Part shown: positions 1 through 37,636 of the stretch, piece after piece | Layout of the letters: each line of letters begins with the position of its first letter | Numbering within the stretch: the stretch's first letter is position 1 | Assembly (NCBI RefSeq): GCF_018402285.1 | Contig: NZ_JAGYJH010000002.1 | Span: 62,001 to 126,000 of the forward strand | Direction of reading: 5' to 3' | DNA length: 64,000 bases | DNA from: Hyphomonas sp. | GTDB lineage: Bacteria > Pseudomonadota > Alphaproteobacteria > Caulobacterales > Hyphomonadaceae | Translations under genes and position numbers: made by a program | Notes under the pieces: generated by a model | The model's database searches: none | The model's input: only the letters and a program-made list of their open reading frames with translations | Told to the model about the DNA's origin: nothing

Positions 1-1515
1 GCGAGCCCGAAGCCGTTTCCGCGCAAAACTCAAGGCAGTCTGCTCGATCCCGTCCGGGCGTCCATGAACTGTCCAAAGCAGAATATGGGCGGACGCATAA
101 GTGAGCATGCCGCAGGCCGAGAGGACACCGACTGTCAGGATATTGCCAGGGACTGTATCCGGGAAATTTATCATCTGGCGGACGGCGAGGACAACACCTA
201 CCATCAGAAGGGTCGAGAGGATGGAGCGGCCAAAGCTGCTCACCTGATCGAGTATGCTGATCTGGATCAGCCTTTTGAGGAAAATCAGGTTGATCACTGT
301 GGCGATCAGTGTCGAGACGGCGTAGCTGCCCAGCAGGCCGATGAAGCCGAAGAGCAAGGTTCCGGTAATCAGACAGGATACCCGGATCACGAAGTTCAGG
401 ATGTCGCGGCCCAGCATCAGCTTTGTCCGGCTGAGTGACATGGCCACAGAGCGGATGGGGCCAGCAGCCAGTAGCAGTCCCGTGCAGGGCGCATAGAACT
501 GAACGATGGTGACAGCCTCCTTCCAGTTGGGCCCAAGCATGAGGGGGATCAAGGGGTCTGCGACGAGTGCAAGCCCGGCGCCCAGCGGCAGCGACAGCGC
601 CATCGTGGCGGACTGTGCCTTCAGATAGGCCGCGCGAAATCTGTGCATGTCATCGGCGAGCCGGCTGAACGCGGAGAAGAGCGAGCGGATGATGGGCGTG
701 AGAATCAGGTGGGAGATCTCCGAGGAGAGCTTGTTCCCGACATGCAGCTGGCCGAGGATCGCCTGTCCGAAAAGGCGGCCAGAAATGAGATAGGCAGCAT
801 CCTGGTTTAGCCGGTTGACGATCATGCTGAGCCCCAGCCAGACTGAATAGCCAAACAGCCTCCTAGGCGAACGCAGCGAAAGCTTCGGCATCCGGCGCGC
901 AGCTATGTAAGTGACGATCATGCTGACAAGGGCCCCGGCCAGCATCCCAGCCACGAATGCCCAATAGGACTTCCAGATCAGGGCCGCACTGATACTGACA
1001 ATGACCTGTACGACCTTGGCGGAAACTTCGGCCAGGACATCCCAGGAGAAATTCAGAGAGCGGGCGAAATTTTCAAAATAGGGGTTCCTCAGACCAAAGA
1101 TCATGGTTTGGCCGGTCAATGCCATCACAACGGGCGCGATTTCCGGCATGTTGAAGACCATGGCCAGAGGGTGGGCCGCAGCGAGGATTATGACCGAGAC
1201 AAGGATCGACCGGAGGATGGAAATGGTCCAGGCAGTGTTAAATTCATCTTCTGTCGGGGAATCCAGCGCAATCAGGGCGGACGTGACAGGAAGATCCAAG
1301 AGCCCGGCTGCTATGCCGACAATCGCCATTGAGATAGCGATGACGCCGAAATCTGACGGCACGAGAATGCGGGCGAGGATGATGGTACTCAGGAATGCAG
1401 CCGCATAGCTGGCGATCTTGGCCAGGCTAAGCCAGGCGGCCGCGCGCATAACCTGCGCGGAAGATACCTCCCGCCTGTTTTCCGGCCCGAAGCCATCATT
1501 ATTCTGGTCGCTCAT
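1..1515 (-). CDS. Polysaccharide flippase (Wzx/oligosaccharide flippase family), partial, continues past the window start
   Basis: Reverse-complement reading from ATG at ~1515 gives MSDQNNDGFGPENRREVSSAQVMRAAAWLSLAKIASYAAAFLSTIILARILVPSDFGVIAISMAIVGIAAGLLDLPVTSALIAL..., typical of flippases; frame open to the window edge, so absent from the ORF track. Confidence 0.85.
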   Translation of the reverse strand, partial: MSDQNNDGFGPENRREVSSAQVMRAAAWLSLAKIASYAAAFLSTIILARILVPSDFGVIAISMAIVGIAAGLLDLPVTSALIALDSPTEDEFNTAWTISILRSILVSVIILAAAHPLAMVFNMPEIAPVVMALTGQTMIFGLRNPYFENFARSLNFSWDVLAEVSAKVVQVIVSISAALIWKSYWAFVAGMLAGALVSMIVTYIAARRMPKLSLRSPRRLFGYSVWLGLSMIVNRLNQDAAYLISGRLFGQAILGQLHVGNKLSSEISHLILTPIIRSLFSAFSRLADDMHRFRAAYLKAQSATMALSLPLGAGLALVADPLIPLMLGPNWKEAVTIVQFYAPCTGLLLAAGPIRSVAMSLSRTKLMLGRDILNFVIRVSCLITGTLLFGFIGLLGSYAVSTLIATVINLIFLKRLIQISILDQVSSFGRSILSTLLMVGVVLAVRQMINFPDTVPGNILTVGVLSACGMLTYASAHILLWTVHGRPDGIEQTALSFARKRLRAR

Positions 1516-1832
1516 GGGCACATCAGTTTGTGTTTCAGTTCGAAACGAATTCCGGGGATCAGCTTTGATAAGAGATTATCGTGCCACGCAATTCGCACGC
1601 TACGACACTCTCTTATAGCCAGTCCAACCATTTAGGGAGTGTGAAAAATCTGGTCTCTGGGCAGTGACAGGAGGGGCGGCAGGCTAGCTTTCCGCCAGCT
1701 GGTTCATTTCCTGCATATCCCTCGTGGGCCTTCAGGAAGGCAGGTGCAGATCACCGTCTGCTAACGGGGGGAAACAGAATAGAAATGGAAAACTCCGACA
1801 TGAATTGCACATGTATTGATAGAAAATCGGAC

Positions 1833-1985: not shown

Positions 1986-4900
1986 GTGAGCAGTATTCGT
2001 GCGCTATTTGTGGGCGATGGTCCACTATTGGAGCAATGCCTCGAGGCTTTTGTTCATTCAGGGGGGCAGGTTGCGGCCATTTTAACCCAGGATGCAGGTA
2101 TTGCCCGGCGGGGCGAGGCAGCCGGCATGCGCGTCCTGGGCAAGAGCCCGGCGAGCCTTGCGGCACTTGAAGCGCTGGAGTTCGACTATCTCCTGAGCAT
2201 CGCCAACCTCGACATGCTGCCGGAGACGCTGCTGAAGCGTGCCCGCAAGATGGCGATCAATTTTCACGATGGTCCACTGCCGCGCTATGCCGGTCTCAAT
2301 GCGACGTCATGGGCGATCCTGCAGCGGGAAACCTCGCATGGCGTGACCTGGCACGAGATGACAGCAAAGGCCGATATGGGCGCAATTGTCGAGGCGGCAG
2401 CCGTGACAGTTGACCAGCATGATACCGCCTTCAGTCTCAACGCCAAGTGTTTCGAGGCGGGCTTTGCTGCGTTCAAGGCGATGATCCCCGGGCTGATGTC
2501 GGCCAATGTTGCCCTTCGCGCGCAGGAAGGCGAGCGCACCTACTTTGGCCGGTTCAAGCGGCCAGACGCGGCGGCGACCCTGCGGTTTGACCTGCCGGTG
2601 GCGCAGACACTGGCACTTGCGCGGGCGATGTCGTTTGGTCCTTACACCAACACATTATCACATCTCAAGGTTTGGACCGGGCAGCGCGTGCTGCTGGTGG
2701 ACGAAGTGACTGAGGCGGGCGACGCGGCCTCCCCGCTGCCGCCGGGAACCATCGTTGCGCTCGAAGATGAGGGCCTTCGGGTTGTGGCAGAAGGCGGAAA
2801 GCTGCTGCGAATTTCCGGCCTGACGGATACCTCGGGCGCGGCGGTGAACCCCGCCTCGATCGGCGAGTTGCAGGCTGGCGCGTGTCTGCCGGTTCTGTCA
2901 GCGGAGGATGTTTCCGGGATTGATCAGCATACAGCTGCCAGTGCCAGGGCAGAGAGCTTCTGGATGGCGCATAGCGCGCGCGTGATTGCCAGCGAGGCAG
3001 CGCCCTATCCGCGCGCCATGAAGCCCGCATCGGGCGACCACAGGTTTGATCTTGATGCCGGGGCTGATGCGGCGCTGGGCGTCGCCGCACTGGCGGCGTG
3101 GGCGACCCATGTTGGGGCCGGGTCTTCGGCAGCCATTGCGCTTCATGATGGCGCGCAATGGGCGGGGCTTGGACGGTATGCGTCCTGGTTTGCGCCGTGG
3201 CAGCCTCTGGTTCTGGATGTTGCACCGGATGCGCCGGGCGGCGAGCTGCTCGCCAAAGCGCGGGCAATTCTCGACGCGGCAGCAGGCAAAGCGGCGCTGG
3301 CATGCGACGCCTACATGCGGCGCCCGCGGGCTGAACGCCTGCAGGGCCGGGCTGATGATTTTATTCTCGGCGTCGTAATGGGTGATGAAGCACCAGAACA
3401 TCCCAACGCAGATGTTGTATTGCAGGTTACAGAGTCCGGGCTGGCTCTTCGCGTCTCGGCGGGCGCCTATGACGCCGATGTGGCTGGCGTGATCGCTGGG
3501 CATGTCAAGGCGACATTGGCCGCGCTGAAGGATGCGCCTCATGCGGCGCTGTCCGCACTGGATTTGCGACCAGCGGATGAGCGCGCGACACTGGCCAGAT
3601 TTGAGGCCGGGACCGACGTGGCTGTTGCGTTCGTGTCGATGCATCAGGGCGTAAGCGTACAGGCCGCGAAAACGCCGGGCCGTGTTGCACTGCGCACCCG
3701 CGATGGCGCGATGACGTATGCAGAGCTTGATGCTGTGTCGAGCCGTGTGGCCGAGCAGTTGATGGCGCGCGGCGTTGAGGCGGGCGAAACCGTCGGCGTG
3801 TGCATGAACCGCTCCATCGCAATGGTGGTCGCGCTTCTGGCGGTGCTGAAAACCGGATGTGCCTATGTGCCGCTGGATCCGGCCTATCCGGCCGACCGCG
3901 TCGATTTTATGCTGGAGGACAGCCAGTCCCGGTTCGTCATCGTCGACGCAGCTGGCGGGCAGGACGGCTCCGGCGCCCAATGCCTGGCGTTCAGTGAACT
4001 GACCAGCGGCGTTGCGGGGAACTGGCAGCCAGTGGACGTGACGCCGCAGGATCTTGCCTATCTGATCTATACATCTGGCTCTACCGGGCGCCCCAAGGGC
4101 GTGAAGGTGCAGCATGGCGCGCTGGCAAACTTCTTCGCTGCTATGGATGTCCGCCTGCCTTACAAGGACGGCGACACCTGGCTGGCGGTGACGAGCCCGA
4201 ACTTTGATATTTCCGTGCTCGAACTGTTCTGGACGCTGTCGCGCGGCCTGACCGTGGCGTTGCATGGCGCCGAGGCGCAGAAAGCCAAGCCCTTCAGCCT
4301 GTTCTATTTTGCTGCGTCCTCATCGGCGAATGCCGATCAGTACAAGCTCCTGTTTGCAGGCGCCCGCTTTGCCGACGAAAATGGCTTTGAGGCCATCTGG
4401 ACGCCCGAGCGGCACTTCCACGATTTCGGCGGGTCGTTCCCCAATCCGGCTGTGACAAGCGCCGCGCTCGCCGCGATCACCAAGAATGTCCATATCCGGG
4501 CGGGCAGCTGCGTACTGCCGCTGCACCATCCCATCCGCGTGGCGGAAGACTGGGCGGTGATCGATAATATCTCGGGGGGCCGGGTTGGGCTCGCAATTGC
4601 GACGGGCTGGCAGCCGAACGATTTTGTTCTGGCACCGGACAATTTTGCCGGACGCAAGGATACGCTGCCGCAGCGGATTGATACGCTCAAGCGCCTGTGG
4701 CGCGGCGAGGCTGTGCCTTTCGTCAACCCCAATGGTGTTGAGATCGCGACGCGGACCCAGCCGCGCCCCGTTCAGAAAGAACTGCCGATCTGGCTGACCA
4801 TTGCCAAGGCGCCCGAGGCGTTTGAAAGCGCAGGCCGCCAGGGCTTCAACGTGCTCACCCACCTGCTGGGCATGTCTGTGGCCGAGCTGGGCGGCAATAT

Positions 4901-6533
4901 CGCAAAGTATCGCGAAGCGTGGAAGAAAGCCGGGCATCCGGGCGAGGGCCGCGTGACGCTGATGCTTCACTCCTTTGTGGGCGATACGGATGAATATGTC
5001 CGCGAAGTCGTCCGCCAGCCGATGAAGAATTACCTGCGCACGGCAGTAGACCTTGTGCGCGACGCGGCATGGACCTTTCCGACGCTGGTGCAACGCGGAG
5101 AGGCGAGCGGCCGGACGGCGCAGGAGGTGATGGACGCAGAGCCCCTGACCGCCGAAGAGATGGACGCGCTGCTGGATCATGCATTCGAGCGTTACTTCCA
5201 GACGAGTGGCCTCTTCGGATCGGTGGAAACCTGCGCAGAGATGACGCGCCGGGTGCATGCCATCGGGGTGGATGAGGTCGGTTGTCTGGTCGACTTTGGC
5301 GTGGACCAGGACCTCGCCATTGAGCACCTGCCTTACCTGCGCCGCGTGATGGATCGGGCGGGCGCCTCTTCCCATGAGGGTCGTCATACGGTTGCCGATG
5401 ATCTGGAATTCTTCGGCGTCTCCCACCTTCAGTGTACGCCCTCCATGGCTATGATGCTGGGCGGGGAGAGCGACAAGCTGACCGGGCTCCAGGTGATCTG
5501 TGTTGGCGGGGAAGCCCTTCCGATGGAGCTGGCGCGATCTTTGCGGGCCAATGCGCCGCAGGCAAAACTGTTCAACATGTATGGCCCGACAGAGACAACC
5601 ATCTGGTCGACCATGTGTGACCTCACCGAGATCGGGGCTTATATTCCGCTGGGCGAAGCGCTGCTGAATACGACCCTGCGGATCGACTCCGCTTCGGGGC
5701 GCCCGCAACCGGCGCTGGCTGCGGGCGAATTGCTGATCGGCGGGGACGGGGTGACGCTCGGTTACTGGAACCGGCCGGAGCTGACGGCAGAGCGTTTTGT
5801 GACGCTGGCGGATCGTCCGGGTGAGCTGATGTACCGGACGGGTGACCTTGTGCGCCGACACCGCGATGGCAAGCTGGAATTCCTCGGGCGAATTGATCAT
5901 CAGGTCAAACTTCGCGGCCACCGGATCGAGCTAGGCGAGATCGAGGCCGCGCTTGTGGCCCGGGACGAGATTGCCCAGGCAGTTGTTGCCGCACTCGGCG
6001 AAAGTAATGAGAACAAGCGTCTTGTGGCGTATTGTGTCGTGAAGCCGGGAACAGACCTCGATGCGAAGGCACTTCGGGCCGAGCTCTCGCAGAGCCTGCC
6101 GGAAATCATGGTGCCAGCGCAGATCGTGGCACTGCCGGCGCTGCCCCTGACGCCCAACGGCAAGATCGACCGCAAGGCGCTGCCTGCGCCAGAGGCTGTG
6201 GTTCAGGGCTCTGTCGAAACACCGAGCGACGAGACAGAGCAGAAGCTCGCCGCGCTCTGGCAGGAGCTGCTTGGGCTGCCGGCGATCGACGTCAACGCGA
6301 ACTTCTTCGACCTTGGCGGTCACTCGCTTCTGGCTTTCCAGATGCTGCGCCGGGTACAGAGCGAATTTTCCAGAGAGGTCACCATTACCGACGTCTTCCG
6401 GTTCCCGACCGTGCGGACGCTGGCCGACCGTATACGGAAGGGTGCCGGAGATGACAAGGACAAGCCGAATGCCGCTCTGGGCCGGGCCCAGGCACGCCTT
6501 GGGGCGCGCCGCCGTGATCCTGCGAGGACCTGA
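1986..6533 (+). CDS. NRPS: N-terminal formyltransferase - degenerate condensation-like region - adenylation domain interrupted by a luciferase-like monooxygenase (MupA/Atu3671-type) - PCP
   Basis: FMT-type motif INFHDGPLPRYAGLNATSW...ADMGAIV; A3 YIYTSGSTGRPKGV (LIYTSGSTG); A4 NFDISVLELFW; LLM block KPFSLFYFAASSS...LPYLRRVMD; A5 NMYGPTETTIW; A7/A8 YRTGDLVRR, GRIDHQVKLRGHRIELGEIE; A10 LTPNGKIDRKAL; PCP NFFDLGGHSLLAF. GTG start at 1986. Confidence 0.92.
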   Translation: MSSIRALFVGDGPLLEQCLEAFVHSGGQVAAILTQDAGIARRGEAAGMRVLGKSPASLAALEALEFDYLLSIANLDMLPETLLKRARKMAINFHDGPLPRYAGLNATSWAILQRETSHGVTWHEMTAKADMGAIVEAAAVTVDQHDTAFSLNAKCFEAGFAAFKAMIPGLMSANVALRAQEGERTYFGRFKRPDAAATLRFDLPVAQTLALARAMSFGPYTNTLSHLKVWTGQRVLLVDEVTEAGDAASPLPPGTIVALEDEGLRVVAEGGKLLRISGLTDTSGAAVNPASIGELQAGACLPVLSAEDVSGIDQHTAASARAESFWMAHSARVIASEAAPYPRAMKPASGDHRFDLDAGADAALGVAALAAWATHVGAGSSAAIALHDGAQWAGLGRYASWFAPWQPLVLDVAPDAPGGELLAKARAILDAAAGKAALACDAYMRRPRAERLQGRADDFILGVVMGDEAPEHPNADVVLQVTESGLALRVSAGAYDADVAGVIAGHVKATLAALKDAPHAALSALDLRPADERATLARFEAGTDVAVAFVSMHQGVSVQAAKTPGRVALRTRDGAMTYAELDAVSSRVAEQLMARGVEAGETVGVCMNRSIAMVVALLAVLKTGCAYVPLDPAYPADRVDFMLEDSQSRFVIVDAAGGQDGSGAQCLAFSELTSGVAGNWQPVDVTPQDLAYLIYTSGSTGRPKGVKVQHGALANFFAAMDVRLPYKDGDTWLAVTSPNFDISVLELFWTLSRGLTVALHGAEAQKAKPFSLFYFAASSSANADQYKLLFAGARFADENGFEAIWTPERHFHDFGGSFPNPAVTSAALAAITKNVHIRAGSCVLPLHHPIRVAEDWAVIDNISGGRVGLAIATGWQPNDFVLAPDNFAGRKDTLPQRIDTLKRLWRGEAVPFVNPNGVEIATRTQPRPVQKELPIWLTIAKAPEAFESAGRQGFNVLTHLLGMSVAELGGNIAKYREAWKKAGHPGEGRVTLMLHSFVGDTDEYVREVVRQPMKNYLRTAVDLVRDAAWTFPTLVQRGEASGRTAQEVMDAEPLTAEEMDALLDHAFERYFQTSGLFGSVETCAEMTRRVHAIGVDEVGCLVDFGVDQDLAIEHLPYLRRVMDRAGASSHEGRHTVADDLEFFGVSHLQCTPSMAMMLGGESDKLTGLQVICVGGEALPMELARSLRANAPQAKLFNMYGPTETTIWSTMCDLTEIGAYIPLGEALLNTTLRIDSASGRPQPALAAGELLIGGDGVTLGYWNRPELTAERFVTLADRPGELMYRTGDLVRRHRDGKLEFLGRIDHQVKLRGHRIELGEIEAALVARDEIAQAVVAALGESNENKRLVAYCVVKPGTDLDAKALRAELSQSLPEIMVPAQIVALPALPLTPNGKIDRKALPAPEAVVQGSVETPSDETEQKLAALWQELLGLPAIDVNANFFDLGGHSLLAFQMLRRVQSEFSREVTITDVFRFPTVRTLADRIRKGAGDDKDKPNAALGRAQARLGARRRDPART

Positions 6534-6538
6534 TTGCA

Positions 6539-9500
6539 ATGGCCGATGAGAACAGCATCGCTATCGTTGGCATGGCCGGGCATTTTCCCGGCGCGCGGTC
6601 CGTGCGCGAATACTGGTCGATGCTGGAAGCCGGGCGGGACGCGACCCGCTGGCTGACGCCGGAAGAGCTGGTGGCGGCCGGGGAGTCCTTCTCGGCCATT
6701 CAGGACCCGCGATACATCCGCGCGACGATGGCCCTGCCGGACATGGAAATGTTCGATGCAGGCTTCTTCGGCTTCAGTCCGCGCGAGGCGGCGATCCTTG
6801 ATCCCCAGCACCGGCACTTTCTCGAGTGCTGCTGGGAAGCACTGGAAGACGCCGGTCACATGCCTGCGGATGAATTTGAGGGCGCGGTTGGTGTGTTCGG
6901 CGGCTGCGGGATGCAGGCCTATCTGGCGTTCAACCTGCTGAGTAATCCGGAACTTGTCGAGAGCGAGGGCATGTTCCTCCTGCGCCATACCGGCAATGAC
7001 AAGGACTTCCTGACGACACGTGTATCCTACCTCCTGAACCTGCATGGCCCCAGCATCGGCATCCAGACGGCATGCTCTACTTCGCTGGTGGCCATTCATA
7101 TGGCGGTACAGAGCCTGCTGGCGCGAGAATGCGACATGGCGCTGGCGGGCGGGGCAAGTATCGACCTGCCTCATGGCCGGGGTTATCGGCATGCGGAAGG
7201 CGAGATACTCTCCTCGACCGGACGGTGCCGCGCGTTTGACGACGCCGCCGATGGCACGCTGTTTGGCAGCGGCGCCGCCGTGGTTGCGCTGCGACGGCTG
7301 GACGACGCGCTGCGTGACGGGGACAATATTCATGCCGTCATCCTCGGTTCTGCCATCAACAATGACGGGGCCCGCAAGGCCGGATACCTGGCGCCCAGCA
7401 TTGACGGCCAGGCGATGGCGGCGGCTGAGGCCCTGGCGATCGCCGGGGTTGATCCGGCGAGTGTCGACTATATAGAAGCTCACGGCACCGGCACTCTGGT
7501 CGGTGATCCGATCGAGTTGTCGGCTCTGCAACAGGTCTATGGCGAAGCGCCGGCCGGGTCGATCGGCATCGGCTCGGTGAAAACCAATATCGGTCACCTT
7601 GATACGGCGGCGGGGATTGCTTCCCTAATCAAGGTCGTGATGGCGATGCGCGGAGAGAAGCTTCCTGCGACGCTGAATTTCTCTAAGCCCAACAGCCGTT
7701 TTGACTTTGCCCGCAGCCCGTTCAAGGTCGTCGGTGAACAGAAGGACTGGCCCCGGACGGGCCGTCCGCGCCGGGCGAGCGTCAACTCTTTGGGGGTTGG
7801 CGGAACAAATGCGCATGTGGTGATCGAAGAGCCGCCCATTCTGCCGCCTGCGATGGCGTCTGGGCCGCAGATCATTGCGCTTTCTGCCAAGACGAAGACA
7901 TCGCTGGAAGGCCTCGTTGCCAAATGGCGCGACTTTGCAACAGATCCCGGGCCGGGCTTCTGCATCGCCAACTCCGCCTTCACGACGCAGACGGGGCGCA
8001 AGCATTTTGCCCATCGCGCGACTGTGGTGGCTTCCGATGCGGCCGAACTGGCCGATCAACTCTCGCCCAATGGCACCTGGCGGCGGACGGCGGCCACGGC
8101 GAAGGACGTCAAGCCGCGCATCGTGTTCATGTTCCCGGGTGGCGGGGCGCAATATCCCAATGCGGCGCGGTCGCTCTATGAGAACAATCCGGTCTTCCGG
8201 AATGCCGTGGAGGCCTGCTTCAAGGTGCTTGAAGCGGGGCTGGCTACCGACCTGCGTAGGCTGATGTTCGACGCAGCGAACTTTCAGGAAGGGTCTGCCG
8301 CGCTGGAGCGGCCGACCTATTCGCTGCTTGCCGTGTTCATTGTAGAGTACGCACTTTCCAAACTATGGGAAAGCTGGGGCGTGGTGCCCGATGCCGTGAT
8401 TGGCCACAGCGCTGGTGAATATGCTGCCGCTGTGCTTGCCGGGATCATGTCGCTTGAAGACGCGATCGGGGTCGTTCTCGAGCGGGGCGAGATTTTTGAG
8501 AACGCGCCTGCTGGCGGGATGGTCAGCGTTCAGGACGAAGAGGCGCGGGTGCGCGCGCTTGTCGGCGACGATCTCGACATTGCCGTTCTCAATTCGCCTC
8601 AGGTGACTGTTGTTTCTGGCGCGCTGGAGCCTTTGGCGGCGTTTTCAAAACGTCTTGAGGCGGAGGGCATCAAGCATGCGCCGGTGCGCATCAAGGTGGC
8701 GGCCCATTCCCGCATGCTTGACAGCGGGCTGGCGCGGTTCCGGGCCCGCCTCGACCGAGTGAAGCTGACAGCGCCAAAGATCGAGTTCATCAACAATCTC
8801 GTGGGCGCAGCGGCAAATCCGCAGGAACTGGCGACGTCAGACTATTGGGTCAGCCATTTGCGCGGCGCTGTGCGCTTTGCAGATGGTCTTTCCGCTGTGC
8901 TTGCAAAGCCTGATACCATTCTCCTGGAAGTGGGCCCGGGGCAGGCGCTTTGCGCTCTGGCTGGCCTTGCGCAGGCCGAGCATGCGCCGCGAGGCGTTGT
9001 GGCGAGCCTGCCAACCGCCGTCGAGCATCATGACGCTGCAAGCTATGCCCTGTCGGCGTTTGGTCATTTGTGGGCGCTTGGCGCGCCGGTAGATTTTTCC
9101 CGCATACGGACGGGAGAAGGGCTGCGGCGTGTTTCTGTTCCCTCATACGCATTTGAGCGCCAACGTCATTGGATCGAGCCTGGCAAGGGCAAGGCGGCGG
9201 CTGAAACGGACATGCCGCAGATTTTCCGCAGCGCGGATGTGAAGGACTGGTTCGAGACACGCGTCTTTGAGCCCGCACCCCTGTCGGCCGCGCCGCAGGC
9301 GGCGCGCGCGCATGTCGTGTTCAGTGATGGCAGCGAGTTGGCCTCCGAGGTGATCAACCGGCTGCGCGCCCGGGGGGACACCTGCTTCGTCGTCTCCCAT
9401 GATGCTGCGGCGGAGACGGTTCAGAGCGGCGATGGCGCGTATTCCTTCAATGCAGCAGCAGCAGACTATGCGCCGCTGATCGATGCGCTGTCGAAGGATT

Positions 9501-12500
9501 GCGGGGAGCCCGATACGCTCGTTTTCCTGTGGCCTGCGTTGTTTGCGAGGACAGAAAAAACGAACGGCCCGTTTGATGCTGCGTTTACCCTGACCAAGGG
9601 TCTGCAGCTTTCCGGCTGGGCGGAGAAGGCCCTGTTCCTGGCGGTGACGCAGAACGCTTTTGCCGCGCAGAACGGCGAGACCTGTGACATTCCGCAGGCC
9701 GGTGTTCTCGGCCCCTGGCGGATGCTCAGCGCCGAACAGCCCGGAGTTCGGTCGCGCCTCGTAGACTTTGATGCCAAGGATGATGCAACAGGCCGGGCCC
9801 TGGGGATCGTTAGTGAACTGGATGCGTTGGGTGATGCGCCGGTCATAGCATGGCGGAACGGGCAGCGGTTGGCGCCGGTTCTCAAGCGCGAGCCGACAGA
9901 TGCGCAGGCCTCGGTCCTGCGCGACCGCGGCGTTTATCTCATCACGGGCGGCCTGGGCGGGATTGGTCTGGAACTTGCGCGTTATCTGGCCGGTTCGGTC
10001 AAAGCGCGGCTTGTCCTGACGGGGCGCACACCGGCGCCGCCGCGCGAAAACTGGGAACGTCTTGCGGCGGGCTGGGGCGCATCGGCAGAGGTGGCACGGG
10101 CCCGCGAACTGATCGCGCTGGAGGAAATGGGCGCCGAAGTGCTCGTCCTGGCGGCCGACGTGGCCAAAAAGGCAGCCATGGAGGCGGTCGTCGCGGAGGC
10201 TACTGCGCGCTTCGGCGCAATCAACGGCGTATTTCATGCTGCCGGCATGATTGATGATGCGCCGATGGCAATGAAATCTCTGGAGGAAGCCCACCGCGTG
10301 CTCGCTGCCAAGGCCGATGGCGCGCGCGTGTTGGACGCGCTGCTTCCGGATGGATCCCTTGATCTGTTCACTGTATTTTCGTCAACCAGCGTCCTCATCA
10401 CCCCGCCGGGGCAGAGCGACTATGTGGCCGGCAATGCGATTGCAGAGGCCGTTGCGATGTCCCGGCGCGATGGCAGGGTCATCACCTGGGGTGTCTGGTC
10501 CGACATTGGCATGGCCAAGCGGGCAGCCGATGCCGGCGCAGTGGGCACTGGCGGGGTGATGCATCCGCTGCTTGGCGCGCGGCAGGAGACAAAGAACGGA
10601 ACGCTGCAATTTGCCGAAACTTTCTCGGAGGCTTCGCTGTGGGCTCTGGCCGAACACCGGATTGGTGACATCGCCGTGTTGCCCGGCTCGGCCTATGTTG
10701 AAATCGCCAGCGCCGCAGCTCTCAGCGCAGGGCTTGGGGATGCCATCGAGATCAGCCAGCTGAGCTATGTGGCGCCGTTGGCGATCCATCCGCGCCAGTC
10801 CCGGCAAGTCCGCACGACGCTGACGCCGCTCGAGGATGATGGCTTCCGGATCGAAGTGGAAAGCCGCGCCCATGCTGGCGAAGTCTGGCTCCTTCATTTC
10901 GAGGCGCGCCTCTCTGCGCGCTCTCTGGGAGCGGAGCCTGTGGCTTCTGTGCCTTGCCCGGCAATGCTTGGAGCAGAGCGATTGACACTGACCGAACGCG
11001 GTGTCGCATTTGGTCCGCGCTGGAACAATGTGATCCGCGCAGCAATGGGCGACGGCGCTGTCAGCGCGCAGTTCGCTCTGCCCGGGGAGTTTGCAGCCGA
11101 CCTCGGTACATACAGGATCCATCCGGCACTGTTTGATACAAGCTTTGCGGCGGGTCTTTTCCTGCTGGAGAATGATGCCGAGCGGGGCGTCTTCGCGCCG
11201 GTCTCCATAGATGCGGTTAGGGTCCATGGCGCGCTCACCGGTGCGTTCACGGCTGAAAGCCGGCTGATATCGCGCAGCGAAGACGCCGCTTCGTTTGATG
11301 TGGATATCCAGGATGCGTCCGGCGCGCCCCTGCTGGAAATCCGGGGGGCGTCGTTCCGGTTGGTCTCGTTCAGCGGCGATATTCCGGCCGTTCCCGATAT
11401 GTCGGCCACTGTCCGGGACCGTCTGCTTGCCGAAGGCATCCGGGCTTCTGAAGCGCGCGGGATGTTTGAGCATCTGTTTGCCCAAGGGGCGCAGGCCTTT
11501 GTTGTTTCGCCCGTGTCGGTCTCGCAGGCGCTGCTCGTGACGAATGGCCCGGCAACTGCGACGCAGGGCCCTTCCGGCGCGAGCGCAGACCGGCAAGCTG
11601 TCATCGGCAGAGACCCGGTCGAGCAGCGCCTGGCGCAGATGTGTTCGGAGATCCTTGGCGTCGAAGCCCTGGGGCTGGACGAGGAATTCCTCTCCTATGG
11701 GGGCGGTTCTCTTACCGGTGTGCGTCTGTTTGCGCGTATACGGCGGGAAATGGGGGTGGAACTCGCCCTTAGCGCGCTGCTGCAGGCGCCGACGATCCGG
11801 ACACTGGCGGTGCTGGTGCGGGAGGGCCTGCCCGAGCCGCTGGAAGAGACGCCGGCTGCTTCGGAAACGTCGGTTGCAGTCGCAGAAACGACCCGGCCGG
11901 CGACCGTGCCGCAGAAACCTGCGATCCGGTCAGTTCCTGCCAAGAGCCGGTGGACGCCGATTGTCCGTATGGTTCAGGGAAAGTCCGGCGTCAAACCTGT
12001 CTTTCTTGTGCATGGAGCGGGTGGCACGGCGCTGGTGTTCAAACCGCTTGCCGACAGCCTTAAGAACGGATCAACGATCTACGGGATCGAGGCGCAGGGC
12101 GTAGATGGTACCCTGCCGGTGCATGAAACCATCGAGGAGATGGCCGAACTCTATGTGCGGCACGTGCTAACGGTGGATCCAGCCGGGCCTTACCGGTTCA
12201 TCGGCTATTCCGGCGGGGGCGTGATTGCCGTCGAAATGGCGCACCGGCTGCGTCAGAGTGGCCGTCAGGTCGAGTTCCTCTGTATGCTAGATACGCTTGC
12301 GCCGCAGGAAATGTACCGGCCTGTGCAGCTCAATCATGAACTGAAGCGGCTCAGCCGCAAGGTGCGCGGCTGGATGGAACTCGGGCCAGGTGAAATCAGA
12401 GCGCGGTTTGCAAAGCGCGCACGCAAGGTTGTCGGCACGATCAAGCCCCCTGTCGAGCCCAAGGGTCAGTCACAGCCCAGATCGCATATTGAAGTCTTTT

Positions 12501-12790
12501 CCCGCAACTGCATCGACGCCTATAAGCGCGCGCAAGAGCGCTACCATCCGCCGGAGTATCCCGGTGATGTGCTGCTCTTCCGGGCCAAGAATGCAGAGCT
12601 GCCCTTTGAGCGGGCGGGAGACCGGCTTGGCTGGGACGGCATCATCACTGGAGCCATGGAAGTGATTGTAATGAATGCCGATCACTACAACATCCTCAGA
12701 ATACCGAATATTGACAATGTGGCTAAAGAGATTTCGCGAAGGCTGAAGGCTCTCGATAGCGCGCGCAGTAAAGCCGAAGAGGTCGCGTAG
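6539..12790 (+). CDS. Type I polyketide synthase, KS-AT-KR-DH-ACP-TE
   Basis: KS TACSTSLVAIH, EAHGTGT, KTNIGHLD; AT VFMFPGGGAQYP and GHSAGEYAAA; KR GVYLITGGLGGIGLE, SSTSV...SDYVAGNA; DH HRIGDIAVLPGSAYVE and HPALFDTS; carrier EFLSYGGGSLTGVRLF; TE VFLVHGAGG, GYSGGGVIAVEMA, C-terminal ADHYNIL. Confidence 0.93.
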   Translation: MADENSIAIVGMAGHFPGARSVREYWSMLEAGRDATRWLTPEELVAAGESFSAIQDPRYIRATMALPDMEMFDAGFFGFSPREAAILDPQHRHFLECCWEALEDAGHMPADEFEGAVGVFGGCGMQAYLAFNLLSNPELVESEGMFLLRHTGNDKDFLTTRVSYLLNLHGPSIGIQTACSTSLVAIHMAVQSLLARECDMALAGGASIDLPHGRGYRHAEGEILSSTGRCRAFDDAADGTLFGSGAAVVALRRLDDALRDGDNIHAVILGSAINNDGARKAGYLAPSIDGQAMAAAEALAIAGVDPASVDYIEAHGTGTLVGDPIELSALQQVYGEAPAGSIGIGSVKTNIGHLDTAAGIASLIKVVMAMRGEKLPATLNFSKPNSRFDFARSPFKVVGEQKDWPRTGRPRRASVNSLGVGGTNAHVVIEEPPILPPAMASGPQIIALSAKTKTSLEGLVAKWRDFATDPGPGFCIANSAFTTQTGRKHFAHRATVVASDAAELADQLSPNGTWRRTAATAKDVKPRIVFMFPGGGAQYPNAARSLYENNPVFRNAVEACFKVLEAGLATDLRRLMFDAANFQEGSAALERPTYSLLAVFIVEYALSKLWESWGVVPDAVIGHSAGEYAAAVLAGIMSLEDAIGVVLERGEIFENAPAGGMVSVQDEEARVRALVGDDLDIAVLNSPQVTVVSGALEPLAAFSKRLEAEGIKHAPVRIKVAAHSRMLDSGLARFRARLDRVKLTAPKIEFINNLVGAAANPQELATSDYWVSHLRGAVRFADGLSAVLAKPDTILLEVGPGQALCALAGLAQAEHAPRGVVASLPTAVEHHDAASYALSAFGHLWALGAPVDFSRIRTGEGLRRVSVPSYAFERQRHWIEPGKGKAAAETDMPQIFRSADVKDWFETRVFEPAPLSAAPQAARAHVVFSDGSELASEVINRLRARGDTCFVVSHDAAAETVQSGDGAYSFNAAAADYAPLIDALSKDCGEPDTLVFLWPALFARTEKTNGPFDAAFTLTKGLQLSGWAEKALFLAVTQNAFAAQNGETCDIPQAGVLGPWRMLSAEQPGVRSRLVDFDAKDDATGRALGIVSELDALGDAPVIAWRNGQRLAPVLKREPTDAQASVLRDRGVYLITGGLGGIGLELARYLAGSVKARLVLTGRTPAPPRENWERLAAGWGASAEVARARELIALEEMGAEVLVLAADVAKKAAMEAVVAEATARFGAINGVFHAAGMIDDAPMAMKSLEEAHRVLAAKADGARVLDALLPDGSLDLFTVFSSTSVLITPPGQSDYVAGNAIAEAVAMSRRDGRVITWGVWSDIGMAKRAADAGAVGTGGVMHPLLGARQETKNGTLQFAETFSEASLWALAEHRIGDIAVLPGSAYVEIASAAALSAGLGDAIEISQLSYVAPLAIHPRQSRQVRTTLTPLEDDGFRIEVESRAHAGEVWLLHFEARLSARSLGAEPVASVPCPAMLGAERLTLTERGVAFGPRWNNVIRAAMGDGAVSAQFALPGEFAADLGTYRIHPALFDTSFAAGLFLLENDAERGVFAPVSIDAVRVHGALTGAFTAESRLISRSEDAASFDVDIQDASGAPLLEIRGASFRLVSFSGDIPAVPDMSATVRDRLLAEGIRASEARGMFEHLFAQGAQAFVVSPVSVSQALLVTNGPATATQGPSGASADRQAVIGRDPVEQRLAQMCSEILGVEALGLDEEFLSYGGGSLTGVRLFARIRREMGVELALSALLQAPTIRTLAVLVREGLPEPLEETPAASETSVAVAETTRPATVPQKPAIRSVPAKSRWTPIVRMVQGKSGVKPVFLVHGAGGTALVFKPLADSLKNGSTIYGIEAQGVDGTLPVHETIEEMAELYVRHVLTVDPAGPYRFIGYSGGGVIAVEMAHRLRQSGRQVEFLCMLDTLAPQEMYRPVQLNHELKRLSRKVRGWMELGPGEIRARFAKRARKVVGTIKPPVEPKGQSQPRSHIEVFSRNCIDAYKRAQERYHPPEYPGDVLLFRAKNAELPFERAGDRLGWDGIITGAMEVIVMNADHYNILRIPNIDNVAKEISRRLKALDSARSKAEEVA

Positions 12791-12792: not shown

Positions 12793-13770
12793 ATGCGGGT
12801 GATCACGTTAACCTTGGGCGCCGCAGGATTGGTTGCCATTGCGTTGGTCTTGCTGCTTGCCGCCTGGCGGGAATCTAAGGGGCTGACCAGTCCGCCGAGC
12901 TACAGCCAGCCGGACCCCGAGACATTTGTGTTTCCAGAAACGCCCCAGTCCCGTTCCGGTCTTCCCTATGAGGATGTCAGCTTTGCCGTTGCTCCAGGCC
13001 AGACCCTGCGGGGCTGGCTTGTGCCGTCGGCAGATGAGAGCGACCTGGTGGTCGTCACCCTACACGGCCGCAGTGGCGATCGGCGGACACATCTCAAGCA
13101 TCTGCCTATGCTGCATGACCTGGGCGCGGCCGTCCTGCTTTTTGACATGCGCGAGAATGGGCTGAGCGACGGCCAGGGCCGTGGCACAGGCTTGGCGGTT
13201 CGCGAGGCCAGGGATGCCGTTGCGGCAGCGCGCGAGATGCACGAGCGCGGATACGGCCGCATTGTCGTCATGGGCTGTTCGCTTGGCGGTTCAGCGGCTA
13301 TCCTTGCTGCCGCGCAGGAACCGCTGATCGACGGTGTGATTGCAGAAGCCTCGATTGCGCGGTTTGAAGACTTCGTCGGTGATTATACGCGCCAGCGCCT
13401 GAGGGGCCGGGCGGATTGGGCGGGCCGGATGTGGGGGCGTTTCGTAGTTGGCCTGACGCGACTACGCATCGGTCTGGATGAGTATGCTGCCCCTGCAGAT
13501 ATGATTGCGGATATTTCGCCGCGGCCGGTTTTTCTGATCCATGGCGGGCAGGACAGCGTCGTAAAAAGGTCACACGCGGACTTGTTGCACCAGAAGACCG
13601 GTGGGCAGGCGGAGTTCTGGCTGATTGAGGACGCTGGGCACTGCAACGGCTTTGAGACGGCCGGTGAGATTTACCAGGGTCGTGTTGCTGCCTTTTTGGG
13701 CCAGTTTCGCACGCGCGACGACGCAACAGGCAGCCCTTCGCCTGAAACCCAGCCTGAACAGCATCAATGA
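12793..13770 (+). CDS. Alpha/beta-fold hydrolase with N-terminal membrane anchor/signal
   Basis: VVTLHGRSGDRRTHLKHLP, nucleophile elbow GCSLGGSAA, VFLIHGGQDSVV, DAGHCNGFE; starts 2 nt after the PKS stop. Confidence 0.8.
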   Translation: MRVITLTLGAAGLVAIALVLLLAAWRESKGLTSPPSYSQPDPETFVFPETPQSRSGLPYEDVSFAVAPGQTLRGWLVPSADESDLVVVTLHGRSGDRRTHLKHLPMLHDLGAAVLLFDMRENGLSDGQGRGTGLAVREARDAVAAAREMHERGYGRIVVMGCSLGGSAAILAAAQEPLIDGVIAEASIARFEDFVGDYTRQRLRGRADWAGRMWGRFVVGLTRLRIGLDEYAAPADMIADISPRPVFLIHGGQDSVVKRSHADLLHQKTGGQAEFWLIEDAGHCNGFETAGEIYQGRVAAFLGQFRTRDDATGSPSPETQPEQHQ

Positions 13771-13817: not shown

Positions 13818-13903
13818 TAAAGCGTGCAGAAGTAATGCTGGCTCGAATTTGAGGGTTTAGACTTTATGTGCAGGCTGGAGTTAACCGCTCAAGGGAGCAT
13901 CGC

Positions 13904-15046
13904 ATGACATCTCAAGTAAGTGTCATTCTGCCCACATTTAACCGAGCCGATCTGATCGCAGAGACGCTGGATTCTCTTCTGGTACAAACGCGACCGGTGA
14001 ACCAGATCCTTGTCGTCGATGACGGATCAACCGATGGCGTCAAGGATGTGGTTCTGCGGTATGCGGACAAGGTGACCTATGTGCGCCAGGAGAATGGCGG
14101 CAAATCCCGCGCTCTGAATTTTGGCATGACGCTGGCGACCGGGGACTATATCTGGATCTGCGATGATGACGACTTGCTGGAACCTGATGCTTGCGAGCGC
14201 TTAGCCGGAGCGCTGGATGAAGATCCCCTGATCGGGTTCTGTGCCGGGCGGCATGATGATTTCACAGTCGATCCCTTGACGGGGGAGCAGAGGATTAAGG
14301 CACCAGGTTACTGGCTGGCGTCAAAGCCGGAGGAGATATTTCCCGACCTGCTCGATGGTTGCCATATCTTTCAGCCTGGCATGATCGTGCGTCGCTCCGT
14401 CTACGCTGCCGTGGGCGAATTCAATCCTGACTTCATCCGGTCTCAAGATTATGAGATGCTGCTGCGGATAGCACGGAATTCGCGCGGCCGACTTTGCCCG
14501 GAACGCGTATGCCTGCACCGCGAGCACAGCGGTGCCCGCGGCTCGGCCAAGATGCGGTTCACGCCAGAGCAGAACAATGAAAAGTGGATGAAGTTCCACC
14601 GGATGATCTTTGATCCGCTGATGGCTGATCTTTCCGACGATGAGTTGTTGGCGCCTGCAGTCTGGCTGATGCCGGAAGTGGCTCGCGTCAGGGCCCGTGT
14701 TGCCCTGCTCAAGCGGGGACGTGTCTTTGCCCGGCATATGATGTGGCCCGAAGCACTGGCCACCTTTACCGAGGCCGCCCGGCTTCACGTGGATGTACCG
14801 CTGAGCGAGGTCGAGAAGACCCTCATTGCCGGCGCTACCACCTACAGTTTCGGTTGCGCGCCCCTGTACGAGGTTCCTGCCCACAGGGCCGCTATCATGG
14901 CGCTGAAGACTGTATCGCCTGTCGGCCGCAGCCTGGCTGTGTTGATCAGTAGGTCATTGCACTGGCGTATCCGGAATGCGGCTGGGCGGGGACAGTTTGG
15001 ACTTGCCATGAAGCTGACCGCCTTTGCCGTCTCCAGCCGGGTTTGA
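13904..15046 (+). CDS. Glycosyltransferase family 2
   Basis: MTSQVSVILPTFNRADLIAETLDSLLVQTRPVNQILVVDDGSTDGVKDVV...WICDDDDLLEPDA; ORF track start 13868, likely ATG at 13904. Confidence 0.88.
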   Translation: MTSQVSVILPTFNRADLIAETLDSLLVQTRPVNQILVVDDGSTDGVKDVVLRYADKVTYVRQENGGKSRALNFGMTLATGDYIWICDDDDLLEPDACERLAGALDEDPLIGFCAGRHDDFTVDPLTGEQRIKAPGYWLASKPEEIFPDLLDGCHIFQPGMIVRRSVYAAVGEFNPDFIRSQDYEMLLRIARNSRGRLCPERVCLHREHSGARGSAKMRFTPEQNNEKWMKFHRMIFDPLMADLSDDELLAPAVWLMPEVARVRARVALLKRGRVFARHMMWPEALATFTEAARLHVDVPLSEVEKTLIAGATTYSFGCAPLYEVPAHRAAIMALKTVSPVGRSLAVLISRSLHWRIRNAAGRGQFGLAMKLTAFAVSSRV

Positions 15047-15819: not shown

Positions 15820-16977
15820 TCAGGACAGGAGACTGGGTGAGGCGGCGGTCACGCGGGTGATGCCGGTCAGCGCCATGGAAACGGAAAGCTCTCCTTGCAT
15901 GGCCGCCAGCAAGTGGGCGAGGCCATTTACGCCGCTGCCGGCCAGGGCATAGACCCAGGGGCGGCCAATCATGACAAGGTCTGCGCCGCTGGCGAGGGCC
16001 TTGAGGATGTCCTGACCGGAGCGGACGCCGCCATCCATCAGGACCAGCGTCTTGCCGGCCACGGCCTCTGCGATCGGCGGCAAGGCGCGGATCGTGGAGG
16101 AAACCCCGTCGAGTTGTCGTCCGCCATGGTTTGACACGATGATGCCGTCGGCGCCGCAATTGACTGCTTCCAGCGCGTCTTCACGGTCGAGGATCCCCTT
16201 GATGAACAGGGGGCCACCCCATTGGGATTTGACCCATTCGATGTCTTTCCAGCTAACCGAGGGGTCGAGCGAGGCATTTGCCCAGGCCGAGAAGTCCGCC
16301 GGCGTGGCGGCGTTGGCGACATAAGGAGCAACATTGGCGAGGATGTGCGGCCTGCCGCGTAAACCGACATCCACGCTCCAGCCAGGGTGCATCATGTAGG
16401 ACAGCAGGCCGCGTCGCAGGCGCGCCCAGGCGCCGCCGCCGCCACTCATGGTATTGCGGACGTCGCGATAGCGGGTGCCGACCACCGGCAGGTCAACTGT
16501 AAGGACCAGAGCGGATGCCCCGGCAGCCTTTGCCCGGGCGATCAGATCGGCCACTGAGCCGCGATCCCGGATCATGTAAAGCTGGAACCAGAGAGGCCCG
16601 CTGGTGGCCGCGGCCACCTCTTCGACCGAGCAGATCGACAAGGTGGAGAGGCAATAGGGAATGCCAAAGTCGCCAGCCACTTTTGCGGCCAGAGCCTCCC
16701 CCCGGCGCGCCATCATGCCCGAAAGGCCGATGGGGGAGAGGGCAAGGGGCATCGTTAAGCGATTGCCGAGAAAGGATTTTTCAGTCGAGAGGTCGGAAAC
16801 ATCCCGCAGGATGCGTTGGCGCAGTTCGATGGCCTCGAAGTCTGCCCAGTTCCGTCGCAATGTCAGCTCGGCATAGGCCCCCCCGTCCAGATAATCGAAC
16901 AGGAAGCGCGGAAGGCGCTTTTCCGCCTTCAGACGATAATCGGCTGCGCAGGCTGCAGCGAGGGAGAGTGTTGGCAT
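15820..16977 (-). CDS. FMN-dependent alpha-hydroxy-acid oxidizing protein (L-lactate dehydrogenase LldD-like)
   Basis: RFLFDYLDGGAYAELTLRRNWADF, LALSPIGLSGM, LWFQLYMIRDRG, LTVDLPVVGTRYRDVRN, DGIIVSNHGGRQLDG, LMDGGVRSGQDILKALASGADLVMIGRPWVYALA. Confidence 0.9.
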   Translation of the reverse strand: MPTLSLAAACAADYRLKAEKRLPRFLFDYLDGGAYAELTLRRNWADFEAIELRQRILRDVSDLSTEKSFLGNRLTMPLALSPIGLSGMMARRGEALAAKVAGDFGIPYCLSTLSICSVEEVAAATSGPLWFQLYMIRDRGSVADLIARAKAAGASALVLTVDLPVVGTRYRDVRNTMSGGGGAWARLRRGLLSYMMHPGWSVDVGLRGRPHILANVAPYVANAATPADFSAWANASLDPSVSWKDIEWVKSQWGGPLFIKGILDREDALEAVNCGADGIIVSNHGGRQLDGVSSTIRALPPIAEAVAGKTLVLMDGGVRSGQDILKALASGADLVMIGRPWVYALAGSGVNGLAHLLAAMQGELSVSMALTGITRVTAASPSLLS

Positions 16978-17346
16978 TGATCAGGTATAAGAGCGCGATA
17001 CAGGACTTGGCAAAGATATTCTCAAACGGAATTGTGTGCCTTTGCGGGGCGCTTCTCTTTGTTTTGTTCCAGATTAAATCAAATTCAAACACAGCCGTTT
17101 AGACCCTGTTAAGTCTAGACTTGCGCGCCCGCAAGGCGATCACTTCAGATGAAGCGCGCCTTCAGAGGCGAAATCTACGAGATCGTGATATTCAATTGTA
17201 ATCCATTTCCGCGTAGAAAGATTTTCTAATTCGTCGATCTGAACGCGTTCAAAGCCTACCGGGCGGGGTGGCGCTGAACTTGCAGGGGACCGCCAACAGT
17301 TCGGGCCTGAAAGGCCACGCACACCAAAGTGAGAATGGTATTTCGC

Positions 17347-18636
17347 ATGACTGATCTGAAACGCATGACCCTAACCAGCGTTGCCTTGTGCGCGATTGTT
17401 GCCTCAGTGGCCAATGCGCAGGGCAATGATTTCTACAGCCGGGACAAGTACACTGCGGTTCAGGACCGCGCGCAGCCTGAATTCGACCCCGAGCCGGTGC
17501 GGCTTGGTGCGTTCATGGTGCGCCCGGTAGCCGAACTGGGTGTTGCATATTCAGACAACATTTTCGTTTCGTCCCAGGATGAGCAATCTGGGGCCATTGG
17601 CAACGCCGGCGTCGCGGCGACCGGGGCAACGACCTGGAGTGTTCATCAGGTCGGCTTTGATGTTTCAGCGCGCCGCAACGAGTATTTTGACCAGGGCAAC
17701 GAGTCCAATAATGACCTGCGCGCTCGCGTGAACGGAAGGCTGGATGTAACCCGGAACTTTTCCCTCGGCGGTGGCATCTATGCCGAAGAGCGGATTGAGC
17801 CCCGCACCGACATCACCAACGATTTCAGCCCGGATGAGCCGATCAGCGTTTCGGTGCAAGGCGCCGATGTGAGCCTGATCTATCAGAGCGACCGCGTCCG
17901 CTGGACAAATGGTCTGGGCATTCGCGAGGAAGACTATGGTAACAGCCGCCAGACTGGCACCGGCGCGCTGATCGACCAGACTTACCGTGACCGGACAGTC
18001 GTCGACGGGCGCACGCGCCTGTCCTATGCTGTCTCCCCCAACTTCGCTGTGTTTGGCCAGGCCACCTATGAGCAGCGCGAGCATGATGCGTTGCAGGATT
18101 TCGGTGGTATTCCCCGCTCACGCGACTCTGAAGGCTATACGGTTGCTGCCGGTGTCGATTTCGAGTTGGCTGCGCTGGTTCGCGGCGATGTCGCGGTGGG
18201 CTATCTGAAGGAAACCAGGAGCGATACTTTCTTCGAAGATGTTTCCGGTCTGTCTTTCGATGGCCGTCTGCAATGGTTCCCTACTGAACTCACCACCTTC
18301 ACTTTCACCGGCACCCGCCGCGTGACGGATACAGGCTTCTTCTCCTCTCCGACAGCGGTTCAGACCCGCGGCGGTTTCCGCGTCGATCATGAGCTTCGTC
18401 GCAACATCGTACTGCGGGGGGATGCCATCTACCGCGTCACTGATTTTGAAGGCATCGACCGGGAAGATGAAGCAACAGAGTTTGGCGTCTCAGCCATCTA
18501 CAAGGTCAACCGCCGTGTGCACTTTGATGTCTTCCTCAATCGGCTTGATCGTGATGTGACCGGTGTCGATGTGTTCGGAGATCCTTCTTTTGGCGTGACC
18601 CGGGCGGGCGTCGGCGTTCGTCTGTTCCCGTACTGA
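17347..18636 (+). CDS. Outer-membrane beta-barrel protein (BBP2-like, exopolysaccharide-associated)
   Basis: Signal peptide MTDLKRMTLTSVALCAIVASVANAQ; alternating beta-barrel strands, C-terminal GVTRAGVGVRLFPY; immediately upstream of a Wzc-like kinase. ORF track start 17329 (GTG). Confidence 0.8.
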   Translation: MTDLKRMTLTSVALCAIVASVANAQGNDFYSRDKYTAVQDRAQPEFDPEPVRLGAFMVRPVAELGVAYSDNIFVSSQDEQSGAIGNAGVAATGATTWSVHQVGFDVSARRNEYFDQGNESNNDLRARVNGRLDVTRNFSLGGGIYAEERIEPRTDITNDFSPDEPISVSVQGADVSLIYQSDRVRWTNGLGIREEDYGNSRQTGTGALIDQTYRDRTVVDGRTRLSYAVSPNFAVFGQATYEQREHDALQDFGGIPRSRDSEGYTVAAGVDFELAALVRGDVAVGYLKETRSDTFFEDVSGLSFDGRLQWFPTELTTFTFTGTRRVTDTGFFSSPTAVQTRGGFRVDHELRRNIVLRGDAIYRVTDFEGIDREDEATEFGVSAIYKVNRRVHFDVFLNRLDRDVTGVDVFGDPSFGVTRAGVGVRLFPY

Positions 18637-21100: not shown

Positions 21101-21175
21101 GCAGCGCAGGTTCGGGAACAGGTGACAAGTCGTGGGGCGCGTATGCTTTACCGGCCCGCATCACGGGGACCAAGT

Positions 21176-26277: not shown

Positions 26278-26301
26278 GATGCCCTCCCGGAAAGAGCCTG
26301 A

Positions 26302-27165: not shown

Positions 27166-27175
27166 GAAGGGGTGC

Positions 27176-28330: not shown

Positions 28331-28402
28331 GGGCGCGGGTCCGGTTAATTAACAAGGAGGAGGCGAACCCCCAACGCCTAGCAAAAGCCGTGCCTTGCGC
28401 AA

Positions 28403-29644: not shown

Positions 29645-30063
29645 GATGCTCTCTACTTGGTCATCGCGGACTGCGCGGAAGATTTGTGCTGCCCCAGGTG
29701 GCGCCGGGGAAAGTTTTGGGCAATCAGCGTACGTCCGTCAACTGAAAGGCGTCGTTCCAATGCGGTCGTTTGCCGGGCAAACAGAACAACTTCATCTACG
29801 CATCCTCAAACACAGGCTGGATCAGGCCTTGTCCGGGAAGAATGGTCTCGATAGGCGGCCTCCGGCGCGGGGACAGAAAGATAGGGAACGCCGGGTAAAA
29901 GCGGCAGGATGATCATGTCGAAACCGCTGGTAGCCAGCTATCGGGTGACCTGAGAAGCTCGCATCCCTGATTTATTTCGACAGTCAGGCCCTTTCTGAAC
30001 CGCTCCCCAAAGTACGCGCATCACCACCTGCCAGGGCAGTATGGAGGCGTTGTTCCCACCCGA

Positions 30064-31824: not shown

Positions 31825-31860
31825 CTGTTATCCTGACTTTGAGGTTTTCTGGAAGGCTGC

Positions 31861-33294: not shown

Positions 33295-33320
33295 GATTCA
33301 ATAATCCTTGAACTTTGATG

Positions 33321-37594: not shown

Positions 37595-37636
37595 TCCGCC
37601 GGCTCGCAACAAATTCGTGGACTGAGGACCTTTCGG

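Follow-up and report, generated by a model that had tools for sequence, protein, structure and literature searches.

The stretch analysed here (hereafter the window) is 64,000 nt of a 3.0-Mb Hyphomonas genome (assembly GCF_018402285.1, contig NZ_JAGYJH010000002.1, positions 62,001–126,000), and it carries two adjacent genes, termed gene A and gene B, that encode a compact line of nonribosomal peptide synthetase (NRPS) and polyketide synthase (PKS) domains within a polysaccharide locus. As the original prediction held, both open reading frames (ORFs) are present on the same strand, 5 nt apart, at the coordinates given in Table 1. Searches against Pfam and NCBIfam, combined with profile comparison for gene A, give the order formyltransferase (FT), half of a condensation (C) domain, adenylation (A) domain interrupted by a luciferase-like monooxygenase (LLM) and peptidyl carrier protein (PCP) for gene A, and ketosynthase (KS), acyltransferase (AT), ketoreductase (KR), dehydratase (DH), acyl carrier protein (ACP) and thioesterase (TE) for gene B. 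This is the predicted architecture, refined as to the domain written there as C*, which is the C-terminal lobe of a C domain alone. With an A domain and a carrier on the NRPS side, a KS, an AT and a carrier on the PKS side, and intact active residues, the pair is a hybrid of NRPS and type I PKS.

Domains and active sites of genes A and B

Residue conservation in gene A was assessed in 84 homologous A proteins. No variation occurs at the FT residues N92, H94 and D130 or at the serine of the carrier (84/84). The FT is nearer to ArnA/Fmt than to the FT of the linear gramicidin synthetase LgrA (116 bits for ArnA and 56 bits for LgrA by sequence profile against the Protein Data Bank, PDB), and its AlphaFold model (mean pLDDT 94.4) matches Fmt/ArnA with a Foldseek E value of about 4e-21. 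The stretch between the FT and the A domain is without a Pfam match. With a profile of 52 relatives, however, hhalign aligns residues ~305–548 with columns 191–463 of the NRPS C domain (probability 98.9, E 1.4e-17); since the alignment covers the C-terminal lobe only, a complete but degenerate C domain is ruled out. The HHxxxDG pattern occurs somewhere along the chain in 2 of the 84 A proteins. The LLM, inserted between motifs A4 and A5 of the A domain, scores 506 bits against the TIGR04020 cut-off of 244. In unrelated C-A(LLM)-PCP modules of Streptomyces, Nostoc and Burkholderia, a whole C domain with HHxxxDG (HHxxxDA in one) is present. Because only the C-terminal lobe is found here, the gene A module resembles an elongation module whose catalytic C half has given way to an FT, a view that comes from comparison and not from a traced event. 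An LgrA-type FT or initiation module is ruled out by the ArnA/Fmt-like profile and fold and by the half C domain between FT and A.

The A-domain pocket reads D-I-L-S-x-x-M-[IV]-W-K in the A proteins, with few exceptions. In gene A it is close to the glycine code, from which it differs at several positions, and the pattern D-[IM]-[LV]-S-x-x-M-[IV]-W is also common to the unrelated C-A(LLM)-PCP modules, so the pocket may reflect the inserted LLM no less than the substrate. For both reasons, we rejected naming the substrate from the pocket alone.

For gene B, 79 homologous B proteins were compared. The KS residues C179/H315/H353, AT S624, KR Y1295/N1299 and ACP S1724 show no or almost no variation; DH H1373 is found in 79 of the 79 proteins and D1533 in 78, and the TE triad S1891/D1918/H2049 is kept in most. 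The catalytic motifs that had been predicted for KS, AT, KR, DH and TE are thereby found and nearly invariant. The conservation of catalytic residues across the 84 A and 79 B proteins argues for a working assembly line, and the open frames together with the invariant residues rule out a pseudogene or artefact. Two features of gene B are unusual. The KR lies 5´ of the DH, an order that departs from the textbook, is kept across the family and is known from iterative enediyne and polyunsaturated fatty acid (PUFA) synthases. The AT has the motif AAHS in place of HAFH or YASH, which matches neither specificity motif. The closest solved KS-AT in a PDB search (8xju, 8xjy and 8xjz) belongs to a PKS imaged with a peptide synthetase chain, as expected if the KS is fed by an NRPS.

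The pair lies between a Wzx gene and the Wzc and Wzy genes, which bears out the predicted position in an exopolysaccharide locus; flippase, polymerase, co-polymerase and glycosyltransferases are all present, as in a Wzx/Wzy-dependent locus. The common Hyphomonas block runs Wzx, A, B, C, lldD-like, EpsL-like, Wzc, GT-B, Wzy, galE and GT2 (family 2 glycosyltransferase), and the synteny Wzx-A-B-C-Wzc-Wzy is kept in four other Hyphomonas species. A hydrolase of the gene C type adjoins B in 5/5 other Hyphomonas loci of which the downstream side was read, in one of them next to a B that is only 41% identical.

Table 1. Features of the assembly line and of the surrounding polysaccharide locus (window coordinates).
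Feature	Position	Strand	Details and basis
Wzx-type flippase	1–1521	-	PF13440; runs off window start; adjoins gene A in four other Hyphomonas loci
Gene A	1986–6533	+	1515 aa, GTG start; ORF + Pfam/NCBIfam
A: formyltransferase, ArnA/Fmt type (catalytic N-terminal + Formyl_trans_C-like domain)	1986–2885	+	N92, H94, D130; PF00551; PDB profile; AlphaFold model
A: C-terminal lobe of NRPS condensation domain, without catalytic lobe	2898–3629	+	hhalign; high-confidence model
A: adenylation domain, N-terminal part to motif A4 (FDISVLELFW)	3657–4277	+	PF00501
A: LLM, between motifs A4 and A5	4293–5348	+	TIGR04020
A: adenylation domain, C-terminal part	5409–6185	+	Pocket DILSIVMIWK (pocket code tally); PF00501/PF13193/TIGR01733
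A: peptidyl carrier protein	6240–6434	+	Ser1447; PF00550
Gene B	6539–12790	+	2083 aa; 5 nt 3´ of gene A
B: ketosynthase	6551–7681	+	C179, H315, H353; PF00109/PF02801
B: acyltransferase	8123–8956	+	S624, motif AAHS; PF00698
B: ketoreductase	9929–10501	+	S1282, Y1295, N1299; PF08659
B: dehydratase, after KR	10562–11365	+	H1373, D1533; PF21089, PF14765
B: acyl carrier protein	11624–11809	+	Ser1724; PF00550
B: thioesterase	11996–12739	+	S1891, D1918, H2049; PF00975
Gene C, alpha/beta-hydrolase	12793–13770	+	Abhydrolase families; N-terminal membrane anchor read from sequence; starts 2 nt 3´ of B
EpsL-like outer-membrane beta-barrel protein	17329–18636	+	PF10082; weak TIGR03014
Wzz/Wzc chain-length determinant + tyrosine autokinase	18695–21100	+	PF02706, TIGR01005, TIGR01007
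Probable GT-B glycosyltransferase	21122–22315	+	No Pfam match, read from sequence; kept in Hyphomonas (synteny)
Wzy-type polymerase / O-antigen ligase family	22319–23668	+	PF04932
galE-like epimerase + GT2, end of polysaccharide locus	36587–38635	+	Kept in other Hyphomonas loci

Distribution and genomic setting of the pair

With the FT domain as the query, a scan of an 84,980-species genome collection returned at least 575 relatives, of which the best 79 loci were analysed. Nearly all of these 79 loci with enough DNA carry the same A and B, and they come from Alphaproteobacteria, Burkholderiales, Myxococcota, Acidobacteriota, Chloroflexota and Acidimicrobiales. Annotated plasmid records add copies from Rhizobiales, Rhodobacterales and Deinococcus; on the Deinococcus plasmid (L034, 14785–20108), FT and A-LLM-PCP are separate genes beside the PKS, amid capsule genes. 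The search for the same two-gene architecture in other genomes, which the original prediction had proposed, thus shows it to be shared by a large family across several phyla. Of 385 alphaproteobacterial genomes drawn evenly, 8 (about 2%, the window's own included) have the FT in an ORF of about 1500–1630 aa, the length of gene A. Within Hyphomonas the pair is patchy, B being found in 7 of 42 genomes. Gene order varies across the family: A precedes B at 26 loci, 34 have the order B-(GT2)-A and 12 are divergent. The distances of A and B are closely correlated (Mantel r = 0.962 over 70 loci; 0/499 permutations), which indicates that the two genes are inherited or moved as a unit; this co-evolution and the adjacency of the genes suggest that the two proteins may work together. 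Two deviating copies were seen. In a Terricaulis metagenome-assembled genome (L074), the pair is split into the frames FT, LNK-An-LLM, Ac-PCP, KS-AT-KR, DH and ACP-TE, by sequencing error or decay. A distant version (40%) in another Hyphomonas genome (G014; L050, 6363–19547) has an A protein of 1962 aa with an extra insert in the C-terminal part of the A domain, and the same hydrolase type 3´ of B.

The tie to polysaccharide genes extends beyond Hyphomonas. Of the Pfam families in the 127 nearest neighbours at 30 diverse loci, those that occur most often are glycosyltransferases, epimerases, phosphopantetheinyl transferase (PPTase), polysaccharide synthesis or export proteins and WecG/CpsF; around ten other NRPS/PKS loci from the same order, the neighbours are without such glycan enrichment. 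Two or more polysaccharide hallmarks occur at 36 of 57 family loci compared with 2 of 30 controls (0/20 random windows, 2/10 flanks of other NRPS/PKS), with a Fisher p of 2e-7 that is indicative only, because the reference proteins were taken from the family's own polysaccharide loci, few genomes supplied the controls and the family loci are non-independent. An independent class draw, which was not selected by similarity, places 5 of 6 complete pairs in polysaccharide loci. In a large clade the genes form the operon PKS-GT2-NRPS-PPTase, with overlaps of a few bases in Ruegeria, and this operon often includes an N-terminally anchored protein. The anchored partner is without a Pfam match and a PDB sequence search with it was empty. 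Its model (pLDDT 85) resembles esterases of the GDSL/SGNH group, a carbohydrate esterase of family CE3 and a lipopolysaccharide acetyltransferase in its periplasmic domain (E 1e-4 to 4e-4), and the GHSL and DxxH motifs are invariant. The fold scores are modest but consistent with these motifs, which suggests a GDSL/SGNH fold for the partner.

Several further features lie around the pair in Hyphomonas. A lactate-dehydrogenase-like FMN enzyme (PF01070; window 15820–16977, minus strand) accompanies the pair at four other Hyphomonas loci, where it is 88–90% identical, and it may have a role in the pathway. The GT2 gene at 13868–15046, considered as an obligate partner, was rejected as non-core, having a close copy in just one other Hyphomonas genome. 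Between Wzy and galE, the minus strand at 24664–35228 holds sulfotransferase, acyltransferase 3, GSDH, amine oxidase and GT2-GtrA genes. Elsewhere in Hyphomonas, at the loci read on this side, galE lies within about 2.3 kb of Wzy, with a single extra ORF there in one, and the block looks like a variable glycan-modification insert. The G+C content falls to 0.56 at 32–36 kb of the window. A compact minus-strand operon (38628–44930; RDD, SpoIIM, DUF58, MoxR ATPase, DUF4350 and DUF4129) adjoins the polysaccharide locus. Four other Hyphomonas genomes (G002:C28, G009:C12, G017:C14 and G029:C47) have a far larger modular PKS/NRPS cluster of tens of kb.

Proposed pathway and competing explanations

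The original prediction took the product to be a small N-formylated amino-acyl ketide, and the functional-looking formylating loading module and the one terminating PKS module are consistent with such a line. In the pathway that we propose, the A domain would load a small amino acid, most likely glycine, onto the PCP, the ArnA-like FT would formylate the amine of the loaded amino acid, and the LLM would hydroxylate its alpha-carbon. The KS-AT would then extend the chain by one C2 unit or, if iterative, by a few, the KR and DH would reduce and dehydrate the ketide, and the TE would release the product. A strictly colinear single round would give 4-formamido-4-hydroxy-but-2-enoate or its lactone, or a 4-oxo compound if the carbinolamide falls apart. 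The product would enter a Wzx/Wzy-type surface polysaccharide, here and in most relatives, either as a substituent of acyl type or as a building block other than a sugar, and a membrane-anchored hydrolase (alpha/beta type here, GDSL/SGNH-fold elsewhere) may act on it outside the cytoplasm. Each catalytic step is predicted from protein families; the substrate identity, the product and its attachment to a glycan are pure inference on our part. The recurrence of the pair beside polysaccharide genes suggests a molecule that is added to, or released with, the outer coat, and we give a probability of roughly 0.45 to the use, for a surface glycan, of a short glycine-like amino-acyl ketide that would be N-formylated and probably alpha-hydroxylated. 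A wider class of surface polysaccharides in several phyla, whose repeat unit bears a non-sugar NRPS-PKS group that is attached or trimmed by a periplasmic hydrolase-type enzyme, is a more tentative proposal, which we regard as unlikely on balance.

Several observations weigh against this use of the product. Visible flanks are without a hallmark gene at 14 of the 57 family loci. In two Ramlibacter loci the pair lies amid housekeeping genes, with an FtsX-type permease gene directly 3´ of B in one. In a sub-clade of four loci (L029, L068, L101 and L115), a C-A-PCP module is added in B before the TE and polysaccharide genes are not nearby, the flanks that were read holding thiamine/TRAP transport, autotransporter and sulfotransferase genes. 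In the tree, these six loci fall in the half that includes the window, together with Methylobacterium copies, one of them with Wza, Wzc and sugar transferase genes downstream. At the Hyphomonas locus itself, neither a priming sugar transferase nor a PPTase is found: the sole PF02397 protein of the genome is encoded on another contig, and a PPTase is present elsewhere in the genome. In addition, a TE normally frees an acid or a lactone, and glycan acyltransferases usually use thioesters. Since the Ramlibacter and sub-clade pairs sit outside polysaccharide loci, the glycan link is frequent and not obligatory. The earlier suggestion that the product decorates or accompanies a surface glycan is therefore upheld as a link to polysaccharide genes that recurs over several phyla and in the independent draw, and fails as a universal rule.

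The same loci fit the strongest competing explanation, that the pair makes a diffusible metabolite (a signal, an antibiotic or a protective compound) and resides in polysaccharide loci because these are variable, often plasmid-borne islands or through joint regulation with surface life. The Ramlibacter pairs without glycan genes, the permease gene next to one of them, the extended sub-clade and a TE suited to release of a free acid or lactone all agree with it. However, GT2, PPTase and often the GDSL/SGNH-fold gene share an operon with the pair in many loci, the polysaccharide association holds across phyla and in the independent draw, and an obvious exporter or resistance gene was not found in the window locus. 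We consider a diffusible product a serious but improbable alternative, at about one chance in three.

An iterative PKS could instead make a lipid-like chain that serves as a polysaccharide anchor or specialised carrier, comparable to RkpA of rhizobial K-antigen loci. Gene B is a large multi-domain PKS in a polysaccharide locus, its KR-before-DH order is that of the iterative synthases named above, and without an enoyl reductase it could yield a polyene chain. A dedicated amino-acid loading step with formylation and an LLM fits a lipid anchor poorly, and the closest solved KS-AT was imaged with a peptide synthetase chain, which leaves the lipid-like chain with little likelihood. Least probable is that A and B are the opening modules of a siderophore line akin to fabrubactin of Agrobacterium or to anachelin, a candidate that draws on the LLM family being named for Agrobacterium Atu3671 (which we take to belong to a siderophore locus) and on the NRPS module added in the sub-clade, and which was rejected for this locus: the line terminates in a TE after a single PKS module, a TonB receptor, a siderophore ABC importer and further NRPS modules are absent from the window and from the 25 commonest neighbour families, and the sub-clade flanks hold the transport, autotransporter and sulfotransferase genes listed above.

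Relation to known systems and implications

A domains with an inserted flavin monooxygenase are predicted to carry out glycine alpha-hydroxylation in solanimycin, myxothiazol and melithiazol biosynthesis (PMC10204066). Gene A shares the inserted LLM with the corresponding proteins SolF, MtaG and MelG; their modules elongate a chain, whereas that of gene A starts one, the FT replacing the catalytic C lobe. LgrA (F-A-PCP) likewise has an N-terminal formyltransferase on an NRPS initiation module, from which genes A and B differ in the ArnA/Fmt-nearer FT, the half C domain between FT and A, the LLM in the A domain and the one PKS module that follows. One relative (L040) lies on plasmid pCP157_02 of Paracoccus marcusii CP157, the carrier of a published hybrid HSR-NRPS-PKS cluster; hybrid clusters of this kind are already counted in antiSMASH surveys, and the portion of that report drawn on here gives the antiSMASH class, with no product or polysaccharide link (PMC8273931). 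Wzx/Wzy loci with EpsL/EpsF-like genes have Wzx, Wzc, Wzy, the outer-membrane protein, glycosyltransferases and the epimerase in common with the window locus, which differs in that its syntenic block also holds a hybrid NRPS-PKS line. A large synthase of fatty acid synthase/PKS type is present in the RkpA-containing rhizobial K-antigen loci; to our knowledge, these are without an NRPS loading module, a formyltransferase or an LLM. Searches of the open-access literature for NRPS-PKS in polysaccharide loci, for Atu3671 and for the LLM family name found no description of the system. Each part is of a known kind; the starter design of FT, half C domain and A(LLM) and the polysaccharide tie were not found described in that literature.

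The gene A module would be a natural example of an FT taking the place of half a C domain and converting an elongation module into a starter module, and the system is easily tested because it comprises two genes and less than 11 kb. Genome mining usually treats hybrid NRPS-PKS lines as sources of secreted metabolites. The two-gene line described here scarcely varies, lies mostly in polysaccharide loci and is found in about 2% of the alphaproteobacterial species sampled as well as in other phyla; it would be a sign of a common and unread surface or biofilm chemistry. If the wider class of polysaccharides proposed above exists, assembly-line chemistry would be a routine system of glycan modification.

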